A stretch of DNA of 34,668 nucleotides from Chromatiales bacterium (lineage in GTDB: Bacteria > Pseudomonadota > Gammaproteobacteria > Steroidobacterales > GCA-2729495). Positions 4,827 to 34,479 of this stretch are shown piece after piece. The translations under genes were made by a program, and so were the position numbers. Each line of letters starts with the position of its first letter. The stretch's first letter is position 1. Under the pieces are notes generated by a model. The model made no database searches. It had not been told where the DNA came from and saw only the letters and a list, made by a program, of their open reading frames with translations. Where the stretch lies: the NCBI GenBank assembly GCA_018699155.1, contig JABIQA010000166.1, positions 1-34,668 on the forward strand, read 5' to 3'.

Positions 4827-5639
4827 GTGACCCGACTCAAATATTGCCGTTCTGTATGCGCCCGCCTTGGCGGTTTTTTCGTGTTGGCGTTGAGCGCGGC
4901 TGTCTGCGCAGCGCCCCCTGTTTCGCCGGTCATTGCTATCATCATCGACGACCTCGGCCAGCAACGCGATTACAGTCTTGCCGTTACCCGATTGCCCGGG
5001 CCTGTTGCCTGTTCAGTGCTTCCGCACACGCCCTGGGCCGCGCAAGTTTCCGCGGCTGCCGCAACCTCAGGGAAAGAGGTGCTGCTGCACCTGCCTCTGC
5101 AGGCGATGGAGACAAGTCGCCTCGCCGGTATTGGCGAAATTAGTCTTGATAACAGCCGCGAAGAGTTGCAACAGATTCTCGCGGCCGACCTTGCCTCGGT
5201 ACCGAATGCGGTTGGTATTAATAATCATATGGGCAGCCTGATTACCCGGCACCCAGGCCACATGGATTGGTTGATGGCCGAGATCGCTACGTATCAACAT
5301 TTGTTTTTTGTCGACAGTTACACCACAGCCCAGAGCATTGCTGCTGATATGGCTGCCGAGCATGGGATACCCGTAACCCGCAGAAATATATTTCTGGACA
5401 ATGAGCCTGGCGAAGAAAATTTGAAACATGAGTATCGGCGTCTACTTAACATTGCCCGCAAGCAAGGCTTTGCGGTAGCCATCGGACATCCATACCCTGA
5501 AACCACAGCATTTCTGCAACAGGTTTTGCCGATGTTGCCGGATCAGGGCATACGGTTGGTGTCGGTGGCCGAATTAATTGCTTATCAGCAAAAGCTCCAG
5601 ACCGCCAAGGTCGGCTCTATCGGGCCGACGGAGTTATGA
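4827..5639 (+). CDS. yibQ: Divergent polysaccharide deacetylase family protein (YibQ-like), exported
   Basis: The 270-residue product matches the divergent polysaccharide deacetylase family typified by YibQ. The start is taken as GTG 4827, which begins a basic then hydrophobic signal peptide ending near residue 28. The core shows VIAIIIDDLG with paired aspartates, the GINNHMGS stretch, FFVDSYT and AIGHPYPET, all characteristic of this NodB-like fold. Members are predicted periplasmic, but their substrate has not been settled. The gene follows ctpA by 76 bases and precedes crcB by 31. The GTG start is the main uncertainty about its extent. Confidence 0.9.
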   Translation: MTRLKYCRSVCARLGGFFVLALSAAVCAAPPVSPVIAIIIDDLGQQRDYSLAVTRLPGPVACSVLPHTPWAAQVSAAAATSGKEVLLHLPLQAMETSRLAGIGEISLDNSREELQQILAADLASVPNAVGINNHMGSLITRHPGHMDWLMAEIATYQHLFFVDSYTTAQSIAADMAAEHGIPVTRRNIFLDNEPGEENLKHEYRRLLNIARKQGFAVAIGHPYPETTAFLQQVLPMLPDQGIRLVSVAELIAYQQKLQTAKVGSIGPTEL

Positions 5640-5670
5640 TGCGGCAAGAACGCCATGAGGAACGCCGAAC

Positions 5671-6063
5671 ATGAATGGGATTACATTTGGTCAGGTACTG
5701 ATTGTGGGCATGGGTGGTTTTATCGGCTCTAGTCTTCGTTTTGTGGTGCATCATTGGGTGCAAAAGGCTTGGCTTCCGGGCGTTTTTCCATTCGGCACTT
5801 TAGCGGTGAACATGATCGGCTGTTTATTGATCGGCTTGGTAATTGGGCTAAGCGATGTGCGCGGTCTGCTCGACCAGCAATGGCGTTTGTTTCTTGCTGT
5901 CGGCGTTCTCGGTGGTTTTACCACCTATTCCAGTTTCGCCTATGAAAATTTCAGCCTTCTAAGCAGTGCCGAGTTTTTAAAACTCGGCATCAATATTATT
6001 GTGCAGATTTCTCTTGGTTTGTTGCTCGCTTGGGCGGGGTATCAGGGCGCACGGCTCATTTGA
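5671..6063 (+). CDS. crcB: Fluoride exporter CrcB/Fluc
   Basis: This is a 130-residue inner-membrane protein with four predicted helices, the normal size of Fluc channels, which assemble as antiparallel dimers and let fluoride leave the cell. Seen in the sequence are the helix-2 motif GTLAVNMIGCLLIG with the conserved asparagine, and GGFTTYSSF, which carries the break in helix 3 with the Na+-site threonines and the phenylalanine that lines the fluoride path. The start ATG 5671 follows a GAGGAA ribosome-binding site. It lies 31 bases after yibQ and is closed by a strong terminator. No fluoride riboswitch is visible upstream. Confidence 0.95.
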   Translation: MNGITFGQVLIVGMGGFIGSSLRFVVHHWVQKAWLPGVFPFGTLAVNMIGCLLIGLVIGLSDVRGLLDQQWRLFLAVGVLGGFTTYSSFAYENFSLLSSAEFLKLGINIIVQISLGLLLAWAGYQGARLI

Positions 6064-6093
6064 TTGACGTCTTTGGCGAAGTGATGAGAGTAC

Positions 6094-6121
6094 AAAAAAG
6101 CCCGCGTTAGCGGGCTTTTTT
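6094..6121. terminator. Bidirectional intrinsic terminator between crcB and the HIT gene
   Basis: A-run, stem GCCCGC, loop GTTA-like centre, complementary GCGGGC, then a T-run. Because A and T runs flank both sides, it can serve crcB (plus) and the HIT gene (minus), which converge here. Confidence 0.9.
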
Positions 6122-6140
6122 AGAGGCTATTAAGTAGGGG

Positions 6141-6560
6141 CTATATCAGAGCATCGCGAATTCTTGAAGCGCGCTCCTCGAGAATAACGGGATCAGCCAT
6201 TGCGCCCGAATGTCGCCGTAATGGCACGTCTTCCCAGCGCGGTACCACATGCATATGCACGTGAAAGACGCTTTGCCCGGCAGCCTCATTGTTGAATTGG
6301 CTAATCATGATGCCGTCCGGCTTCATTGCTGAATTCACCGCCCTCGCGATCTTCTGTGTCGTTTGAATAAGCCGTGCGGCCCCTTCTGCAGACAGTTCCA
6401 GCAGATTACAGGCAGCTTCTTTCGGAATGATTAGCGTATGGCCTTCGGCCTGGGGCATAACATCCATAAAGGCGAGGGTATGTTCATCTTCATAGACTTT
6501 GACCGCGGGAATTTCATCCCGAAGGATTTTTGCAAAAAGGTTATTGCTGTCGTATGCCAT
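6141..6560 (-). CDS. HIT-family nucleotide-binding hydrolase
   Basis: The 139-residue product is a histidine-triad protein. The triad is plain in FHVHMHVVPRW near residues 99-109, which provides the nucleophilic histidine for hydrolysis of nucleotide phosphoramidates or related adenylylated compounds. The N-terminal SNNLFAKILRDEIPAVKVYEDE and the following LAFMDVMPQAEGHTLIIPK are standard for the Hint/Fhit superfamily. A very strong ribosome-binding site (AAGGAGG, minus strand, 6566-6572) fixes ATG 6560 as the start. It is transcribed alone, convergent with crcB and divergent from the thioesterase. The native substrate cannot be read from sequence. Confidence 0.93.
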   Translation of the reverse strand: MAYDSNNLFAKILRDEIPAVKVYEDEHTLAFMDVMPQAEGHTLIIPKEAACNLLELSAEGAARLIQTTQKIARAVNSAMKPDGIMISQFNNEAAGQSVFHVHMHVVPRWEDVPLRRHSGAMADPVILEERASRIRDALI

Positions 6561-32622: not shown

Positions 32623-33054
32623 GTGATGCTGCCCAGACCGCAATCACCCCGGAGTTTGCCGGCCCGCAGCGACATCGGCTGAAAATGCGGGAAGCCGAGC
32701 GCATGGATTGCCGGTGTGAGAAACCCAAGGCCGAAAATTGGCCCGATAATTTGCCGCCGCCGTTCTGTCGATAGTGTCAGCATTTGGAATTCCGGAGATA
32801 GACCCTATTTCTCTTCGGCCGCAGAAGTAACTTGTGACACTGCAATACCTTATTATTCGCGATAATCTCTGACAATAACGACTTGCTCTGTGTCAGTCCA
32901 TCCGCATCTTGCCTTCGCAGGGCTGGCTAAATGTGCTGCATGCTATATAGAAACTCCGTTAGACTCTATTTGCAGGAATGTTGTAAATTTTCCTACCAAA
33001 ACAAATCATTTTGATTCCTTTACACAGTGTTTTCGCAAGGATGCAGTAAAAATA
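32623..33054. other. 432-base divergent intergenic region between apbE and the conserved 436-residue protein
   Basis: No gene is supported here. A plus-strand frame joined to the downstream gene is open from a GTG at 32890 but lacks family-like sequence. An extended -10-like TGCTATATA stands at 32941-32949 and an AT-rich ATTAT(N5)ATAAT inverted repeat at 32852-32866; either could belong to a promoter for the downstream gene. No hairpin terminator or RNA gene is recognisable. Confidence 0.4.
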
Positions 33055-34365
33055 ATGAGCGCCGCCAAACTCAGTACTCACCAGAAAGCATTGGCCATTA
33101 ACCTCGACCGCCACCTTTATGGTGCTATAGCAGAAATCGGCGCAGGTCAGGAAGTGGCCCGTTGGTTCTTCAGGGTTGGCGGTGCGGCAGGTTCCGTCGC
33201 TAAAACCATCTCCGCCTATGACATGAAAGTATCGGACGAGGTTTATGGCAAAGCTGGCCGGTATGTTTCGCGAGAGCGTGTGGAGGCAATGCTCGATAAA
33301 GAGTATTCGCTGCTTATTTCACGCCTGGGTAATGACCGTTCGGCCGACACCCGGTTTTTTGCATTTGCCAACACCGTATCTGCCCGGAATTTTGATGGCA
33401 CCAACGAGTGTCATGGTTGGGTGGGGCTGCGATTTCAGCACGAGCCTGGTGCCGAGCCCAGCACCGCTATCATGCACGTTAATATGCTCGACCCCACCAA
33501 CCTGCAGCAGCAAGAAGCGCTGGGTGTTCTTGGGGTAAACCTCATTCACAGCGTGTTTCTTGCGGGTGATGGCGCGGTAGATGGCCTGAAGTTTGTGTCT
33601 GACAACATTGATGATCACCATATTGAGGTCGATGTGGCCGCTTTATTCGGTCCTGCGTTTGAATCGGTCGATGCAGCTCACACCGGCATGAGCATGCTCG
33701 CGAGCGGCCTTGCAAAAGTAGTTCTGTTCGACAAAGAAGGTCAGATGCGCCCGCCATCAGAAGTATTGCGCCAGCGTCCGTTGATTATTCGTCGTGTTGC
33801 GATGAGTCAACCGTTGGTTGCGAATGAGCGCGTCATGGAAATGGCGAGCCAAAAATTCTTAAGTGAAAACGGTGCGCATGAAAAACCGTTGTGTACGGTC
33901 GACTTTTCTTTCTCGACGGTGCATGCCGATAAGCCCAAGAAGATTGAAGAGTTCGCACAAAAGGTGCGTGAGAGTCTGGCCCAGGGCGAGTGGGTGATGG
34001 TGAGTAGCCTGCGACATAACTACGCGTTTACTGACTATCTGCGACGGTATTCGAATCAGCCATTGCGTTTTGTTGTAGGCACATCGGCATTTGCGATGCT
34101 GCTTAACGAAGGCTACTACCGAGATCTTTCCGGCGGTATTTTGGAAGCCACAGGTCGGTTGTTTACTGACGATGTGAAGCTTTATGTGCATCCGATGAAG
34201 AGAGAAAACTTCTACAAGCACATTGAGTCCTCAGAGATAGACCCTAATTGGATATCGGTTGGCGGGAATGCGCTGATCTCGCTTGGCGACCTGGAGTTTC
34301 GTCCTCCTACTAACCTACTTTACGAGTATGTGCGCGAAGCAGGCTGGGTGTTTGAGGTTCGTTAG
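33055..34365 (+). CDS. Large conserved cytoplasmic protein of unknown function
   Basis: The 436-residue product starts MSAAKLSTHQKALAINLD and continues with YGAIAEIGAGQEVARWFFRVGG, AKTISAYDMKVSDEVYG and RFFAFANTVSARNF, stretches I recall as strongly conserved in an orphan family of proteobacteria and other phyla. From memory, databases have labelled members as TonB-dependent receptor or nicotinate-nucleotide adenylyltransferase; neither is supported here, as there is no signal peptide, plug or nucleotidyltransferase HxGH motif. No membrane helix is obvious. ATG 33055 is chosen because the conserved region begins just after it; the open frame reaches back to GTG 32890. It appears as a single-gene unit. 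The conserved GAGQE loop suggests a binding site, but the function is unknown. Confidence 0.85.
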   Translation: MSAAKLSTHQKALAINLDRHLYGAIAEIGAGQEVARWFFRVGGAAGSVAKTISAYDMKVSDEVYGKAGRYVSRERVEAMLDKEYSLLISRLGNDRSADTRFFAFANTVSARNFDGTNECHGWVGLRFQHEPGAEPSTAIMHVNMLDPTNLQQQEALGVLGVNLIHSVFLAGDGAVDGLKFVSDNIDDHHIEVDVAALFGPAFESVDAAHTGMSMLASGLAKVVLFDKEGQMRPPSEVLRQRPLIIRRVAMSQPLVANERVMEMASQKFLSENGAHEKPLCTVDFSFSTVHADKPKKIEEFAQKVRESLAQGEWVMVSSLRHNYAFTDYLRRYSNQPLRFVVGTSAFAMLLNEGYYRDLSGGILEATGRLFTDDVKLYVHPMKRENFYKHIESSEIDPNWISVGGNALISLGDLEFRPPTNLLYEYVREAGWVFEVR

Positions 34366-34407: not shown

Positions 34408-34479
34408 ATGAAAAGGATGATTCAATACCTATTAGTATCAACTTTATTTGTGGCGCATTCAGTCGCCGGACTAGCCTAA
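34408..34479 (+). CDS. Tiny signal-peptide-like ORF (23 codons), possibly remnant or small protein
   Basis: An AAGGAG ribosome-binding site (34392-34397) stands ten bases before ATG 34408. The ORF encodes MKRMIQYLLVSTLFVAHSVAGLA and then a TAA. It looks like a signal peptide with a possible S-V-A cleavage site, but little would remain after cleavage. Past the stop, the same frame continues open for another 38 codons with three cysteines before a TGA at 34594. It may be a true micro-ORF, a gene broken by a nonsense change, or chance. Confidence 0.3.
   Translation: MKRMIQYLLVSTLFVAHSVAGLA

Follow-up and report, generated by a model that had tools for sequence, protein, structure and literature searches.

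The gene described here lies within the window, the whole 34,668-nucleotide stretch of contig JABIQA010000166.1 from a Chromatiales bacterium. It very probably encodes a protein of two domains, the first resembling the NMN deamidase PncC and the second the NaMN adenylyltransferase NadD. Our best reading overall, at a probability of roughly 0.55, is that the N-terminal domain binds a pyridine mononucleotide and has been repurposed, with changed chemistry. In this clade, the C-terminal domain would serve as a structural or nucleotide-binding platform, and in the window protein itself it would be structural.

The open frame runs from 32890 to 34365 on the forward strand, with an ATG at 33055 and a stop codon ending at 34365. 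This ATG is the likely start of the gene, because in L003, a locus from the same genus, just 13 codons of open frame precede it. The own genome gave one match to the window protein, which is 98 and 96% identical in two genomes of the same genus. Whole-gene dN/dS was 0.054 against L003 and 0.051 against L002, both same-genus loci, and values for the two halves of the gene ranged from 0.044 to 0.064 in the same comparisons. Both halves have a low dN/dS, and 33055-34365 is therefore a functional gene under real constraint. The first-pass annotation had quoted five peptide stretches, all of which are present in the translation, and had called the protein strongly constrained. The dN/dS of about 0.05 confirmed this, as did 17 residues that are invariant in the 53 complete members of the family (I28, G29, A30, Q32, S53, Y55, D56, S60, Y64, G65, R69, Y70, R75, E83, W122, H141 and N162; fragments L021 and L067 were excluded from counts and trees). 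An earlier set of 47 rows had 47 columns that were invariant or nearly so, and 44 of these fell in residues 1-239. The features of the gene are listed in Table 1.

Table 1. Features of the two-domain gene, in window coordinates.
Feature	Position	Strand	Basis
Whole gene, 436 aa, predicted two-domain PncC-like and NadD-like protein (short form)	33055..34365	+	ORF, translation, dN/dS
N-domain, approximately residues 1-175, predicted CinA/PncC fold	33055..33579	+	Transferred from modelled L010 N-domain
E27-I-G-A-G-Q32 loop, aligned with the PncC catalytic E-S-C-T-G-G loop	33133..33150	+	Alignment
Y55 to S60; Y55 aligned with Tyr58 and S60 with Lys63 of A. tumefaciens CinA	33217..33234	+	Alignment
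Conserved connector, approximately residues 176-238 (E191, D193, G199)	33580..33768	+	Conserved columns
C-domain, residues 239-436, predicted NaMN/NMN adenylyltransferase fold without its motifs	33769..34362	+	Model, structure search
Degenerate motif I, residues 247-258 (RVAMSQPLVANE); R247 invariant in 53/53	33793..33828	+	Alignment

By sequence, the protein is an orphan, as had been proposed. Searches with the window protein returned nothing significant from Pfam (best E 0.17), NCBIfam (best E 0.12) or the PDB sequences (best E 1.4); the best PHROG match had an E of 0.17, and PADLOC gave zero families. Family profiles and single members likewise produced no meaningful match in Pfam or NCBIfam. 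Sub-threshold matches of single members, such as DUF87 for the Bacteroidales relative L010 (E 0.0028, 18.2 bits, cut-off 23.2), were dismissed as chance. Relatives were absent from the plasmid and phage records of the annotated collections searched, and no paper recognisable as dealing with the family or with a PncC-NadD fusion turned up in the open-access literature searched. A TonB-dependent receptor, a label that the first-pass annotation gave for relatives and rightly distrusted, has a negligible probability. Apart from that label nothing points to it; no TonB, plug or barrel model was listed by Pfam or NCBIfam at E up to 10, and the predicted folds are alpha/beta. No signal peptide was seen by eye at the protein start.

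The fold of the N-domain was assigned through a relative. In the full-length model, built from an alignment of 10 rows, the window's own N-domain was poorly modelled (block pLDDT 38-59 over residues 1-210). The N-domain of L010, 44% identical to the window protein over residues 1-239, was modelled alone as residues 1-241 from an alignment of 11 rows, with a pLDDT of 80.2 and a pTM of 0.83. Four of the five models had a pLDDT of at least 76.7 and the fifth of 43.0; residues 41-55 were under 50. The best 10 of 50 listed PDB entries were all CinA/PncC (PF02464; PDB 2a9s, 6l19, 4uux), at Z 12.7-15.1 and an rmsd of 2.3-3.2 A over 137-150 residues. Next came HcgF of FeGP cofactor biosynthesis (PDB 3wva), which shares the CinA-like fold, scored lower than CinA (Z 9.3) and handles a pyridinol nucleotide, and then YjjX/Maf at Z 6.6 or below. 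Foldseek against the PDB placed CinA in its top two rows, with E values of 0.0026 and 0.019 and no row below 0.001, and the second row of the viral list was a 'competence-damaged protein' (E 0.041). A CinA/PncC fold for the N-domain, to which a connector and a C-domain are added here, is well supported by this modelling. In BFVD, the L010 N-domain best matched A0A3G4ZJY5, a Terrestrivirus protein of 278 aa that is uncharacterised (E 5.4e-6, 18% identity over 244 alignment columns); the N-domain may therefore exist alone, with no C-domain, in a giant virus.

Sequence similarity between the N-domain and PncC did not rise above controls. The hhalign score against a PncC profile, from which 5 of 30 PncC loci lacking the cutting motif pattern were omitted, was 12.7; the best of 200 control ORFs, drawn at random from a larger set, reached 29.6, shuffles at most 25.5 and the reversed profile 18.5. 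When 25 PncC sequences were compared singly with the N-domain, they ranked 54 to 221 of 225. PF02464 was not listed for any member, whether 13 were searched with an E limit of 1 or 35 with a limit of 5. This result would suit an alpha/beta protein with a different ligand that merely resembles PncC and NadD through common arrangements of the fold, a reading that we consider improbable: the Z of 12.7-15.1 for the N-domain is well above that of the first unrelated fold (6.6), and the C-domain, discussed below, has separate profile and motif support in the long members.

The residues that differ from PncC are those of its catalytic centre. In A. tumefaciens CinA, according to PMC5384747, S31 and K63 form the catalytic dyad, with Lys63 as general base, and Y58, S48 and R145 hold the phosphate, with Tyr58 contacting phosphate/nicotinamide. 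In our alignment S31 corresponds to Ile28, K63 to Ser60, Y58 to Tyr55 and E30 to Glu27, each in 53/53 members, so that the nucleotide-site Glu and Tyr of PncC would be kept and the catalytic Ser and Lys replaced. No gap interrupts the alignment between the AE(S) loop and the glycine that follows the helix, and the Glu-to-Tyr spacing is 28, as in PncC. The mapping of the dyad to I28 and S60 is likely; it rests on secondary structure and spacing, partly in the stretch 41-55 where pLDDT is under 50. When scored without gaps, the AE(S) register ranked second of 129 offsets, with a score no better than that of shuffles. The motif window did no better than shuffles even at its best offset (0.387), and the best window of the ungapped profile test (residue 114 on) had a p of 0.017 in 300 shuffles. 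Since Ile28 and Ser60 replace the Ser/Lys dyad in 53/53 members, the N-domain is not expected to deamidate NMN through the known mechanism.

Thirteen polar residues of the N-domain are identical in 53/53 members (E27, Q32, S53, Y55, D56, S60, Y64, R69, Y70, R75, E83, H141 and N162). Because the nucleotide-contacting Tyr55 is kept and many invariant polar residues lie near EIGAGQ and SAYDxxxSD, the proposed ligand of the N-domain is NMN, NaMN or another pyridine mononucleotide, or something closely analogous; we put this ligand class at even odds. Given such a ligand, catalysis is somewhat favoured over sensing. The first-pass annotation had pointed to the GAGQE loop as a possible ligand site, which is still plausible. 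The loop follows the first strand of the N-domain model and sits at the PncC catalytic loop in the best alignment, which is low-scoring. A more specific and tentative proposal is that the CinA-fold site has been rebuilt around EIGAGQ, SxYDxxxSD, His141 and Arg69/Arg75 for a new reaction on an NMN-like nucleotide.

The preferred reading, changed chemistry in the N-domain, has to be weighed against one in which that domain would only sense its ligand, and both domains would be pseudoenzymes binding NMN, NaMN or NAD and regulating something else, as a dead sensor or scaffold. We regard this as doubtful. Both catalytic sets are altered, and E. coli has two inactive paralogues of PncC, YdeJ and YfaY (PMC3855486); the protein also stayed while its adenylyltransferase tail was lost twice, as described below. 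Against this, the 13 identical polar residues are more than a mere binding fold would be expected to need, and no regulatory partner recurs beside the gene.

The full-length model was confident only in its second half, with block pLDDT of 61-89 from residue 231. With residues 239-436, the best 18 of 50 listed PDB entries were all NadD/NMNAT (TIGR00482, TIGR01527; PDB 4wso, 1nup), at Z 7.3-9.9, followed by ATP sulfurylase at Z 6.4. These values are near the Z of 7 to 8 that models with no clear match typically reach, a second point in favour of mere resemblance. Foldseek with the full-length model returned no PDB row at E 0.001 or better; the first row was triosephosphate isomerase, and human NMNAT stood at ranks 2 and 10.

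Motif remnants in the longer relatives bear on the same assignment. In NadD/NMNAT, which have a Rossmann fold, the motif is GxFxPxHxGH / (H/T)xxH, and the superfamily form is GSFxPxTxxH. The window protein reads RVAMSQPLVANE and has lost the motif, whereas longer relatives mostly read RGSFRPVTxxN at the matching place (RGSFRPVTxxNxDM with the residues that follow). Their C-terminal tail resembles the ISSTxxR region and the end of NadD. Among the 40 long members, motif I retains Arg in 40, Gly in 39, Phe in 38, Pro in 40 and Thr in 39, keeping GSFRPxT; at the final position of HxGH, 32 members have Asn, four Thr and one Gly, and His itself occurs in three (L043, L050 and L065). Profile alignment of the longer relatives to NadD gave 201 collinear columns with both motifs paired, at a score of 29.7 and a probability of 20%, against at most 18.3 for 59 column-shuffled NadD profiles and 15.5 for the reversed one. 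The NadD profile omitted 8 of 30 NadD loci lacking the cutting motif pattern, and 22 NadD sequences were tested singly against 222 other ORFs. Four of them took ranks 1-4 of 244 (best control 22.7), aligning mainly by the tail over 32-53 columns; the other 18 fell between rank 7 and rank 196.

With an E limit of 10, a 35-member profile retrieved three PDB sequences, of which the best two were phosphopantetheine adenylyltransferase, a member of that superfamily (E 0.013 and 0.029). Both matches contained both motifs in order, with no single stretch significant, and the aligned PDB sequence shows the motif as GSFDPITYGH. Single-member HMM matches to nucleotidyltransferases (6, 4, 2 and 1 of 35) were no better than those to unrelated families (best E 0.0043). 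TIGR00482 and PF01467 gave nothing over cut-off (best PF01467 E 0.22, in 1/35), and the short-clade C-domain alone had no signal against NadD (score 12.8).

Taken with the models, these data indicate that the C-domain has a predicted NadD/NMNAT fold, from which the residues for adenylyl transfer are lost in the window's clade; nucleotide binding by this domain may persist in the longer relatives. The first-pass annotation had noted the missing HxGH, and an intact one is indeed missing from the window protein. It had also called the adenylyltransferase label misleading. This is partly wrong, as the C-terminal half has that predicted fold and the longer relatives retain remnants of the motifs. 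The idea of an undescribed activity may still hold. By predicted fold, the protein matches two characterised enzyme families; by sequence, the match is weak for the C-domain and nil for the N-domain, and both catalytic residue sets are altered.

The NadD-like tail, altered in the long members, is lacking in 13/53 members: nine rows from the window's clade and four, L117-L120, from a lineage of Bacteroidota. Eleven of the 13 have no motif I, and an RGLY/RGLF remnant persists in the other two, L008 and L009. The N-domain tree requires two changes to explain tail loss, as its well-supported branches dictate, and a single change suffices in 0% of 200 bootstrap trees; the tail was lost independently in the two groups. 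When 7 short members were compared with 38 long ones, identity averaged 44% over the N-domain and 23% over the C-domain. The best reading is that the invariant N-domain, including the GAGQE loop, is the working part of the protein.

Genome sampling for the family covered Pseudomonadota and Bacteroidota, the latter being the phylum of the Bacteroidales locus L010. The genome-contig scan found nine loci, and 12/40 near relatives carry the gene, own genome included. Matches occurred in 5/299 sampled Pseudomonadota genomes, again including the own genome, and in 36/198 sampled Bacteroidota genomes, including the centre genome; the family is therefore patchily distributed in Gammaproteobacteria and commoner in Bacteroidota. 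One Bacteroidota copy is split over two frames (G522:C13:971043-972280; main match 1.1e-138, second piece 2.5e-8), a frameshift or assembly error. Two IMG/VR contigs hold a family gene. On one of them, classed as viral (L026, IMGVR_UViG_3300011873_000028, 58105 bp), a long member lies at 4992-6416, close to the contig end, and groups with the Bacteroidota genomes G352 and G435 at branches of 0 to 0.043. This contig is probably bacterial DNA, perhaps beside a prophage.

According to PMC3855486 and PMC3680494, enzymes with the PncC and NadD folds, which here came from separate predictions, catalyse consecutive steps, from NMN to NaMN and from NaMN to NaAD. A genuine PncC-NadD fusion, acting as both NMN deamidase and NaMN adenylyltransferase, would account for a fold order that matches the pathway order, and the three long members with His at the last HxGH position fit it as well. 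We nevertheless find it very unlikely: by the alignment used, the dyad Ser and Lys are absent from 53/53 members, 13/53 have no adenylyltransferase tail, and carriers keep the ordinary enzymes. The own genome has an ordinary NadD with HxGH intact (G000:C48) and an ordinary PncC with AESCTGG and Lys intact (G000:C29), and both families are matched over cut-off in 36/36 carriers from the Bacteroidota. The protein is therefore an addition to ordinary PncC and NadD, not a replacement. Three Bacteroidota genomes, G352, G435 and G361, have three, four and three CinA-domain matches, some of them weaker and in short frames.

The gene neighbourhood did not reveal a conserved operon across the surveyed loci, and no NAD-related genes stood beside the gene in them. 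In the window, the neighbours are ApbE (opposite strand), a methyltransferase, SURF1 and COX15-CtaA, and the contig ends 303 bases downstream of the gene. A 23-residue ORF, signal-peptide-like by eye, lies directly downstream at 34408-34479, and its shortness precludes any interpretation. Neighbours differ among Gammaproteobacteria, with ApbE in the window and a PNPOx-like gene in L009. In the short-form Gammaproteobacteria L008 (7401-7955) and L009 (1640-2194), related genes lie directly upstream on the same strand, that of L009 being the PNPOx-like one. With mechanically called ORFs, a same-strand neighbour within 60 bases was found upstream in 7/43 loci and downstream in 11/43. A divergent gene of metallo-beta-lactamase fold recurs in 11/43 loci, and AhpC/TSA, HhH-GPD and sigma-factor genes recur in 6, 6 and 8 of 43, one representative of each having been scanned. 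This recurrence resembles synteny within a single Bacteroidota subgroup rather than an NAD operon.

The closest precedent for the architecture is CinA/YfaY, in which a PncC fold is fused to a second NAD-recycling fold, as here, the partner being the COG1058 ADP-ribose pyrophosphatase (PMC3855486, PMC3680494). In that protein, of which inactive versions exist, the COG1058 partner is N-terminal, whereas the partner here is NadD-like and C-terminal. CinA is occasionally fused with other domains (PMC3855486), and known fusions described in PMC3680494 and PMC3855486 are PncC with COG1058 and NadM with Nudix. Among the open-access literature searched, a fusion of PncC and NadD folds would be new relative to known architectures. 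It is possible, at less than even odds, that the family represents an undescribed enzyme class, in which, in the long forms, a NadD-like domain that binds nucleotide is coupled to the rebuilt N-domain; its hosts, Gammaproteobacteria and Bacteroidota, already possess normal PncC and NadD. Bacterial NAD recycling is regarded as well mapped. If the assignment is true, a family with no Pfam or NCBIfam model would add a new pyridine-nucleotide reaction or a sensor of NAD precursors. A protein that was otherwise unassignable would thereby gain a concrete and cheap test: which pyridine nucleotide it binds or converts.
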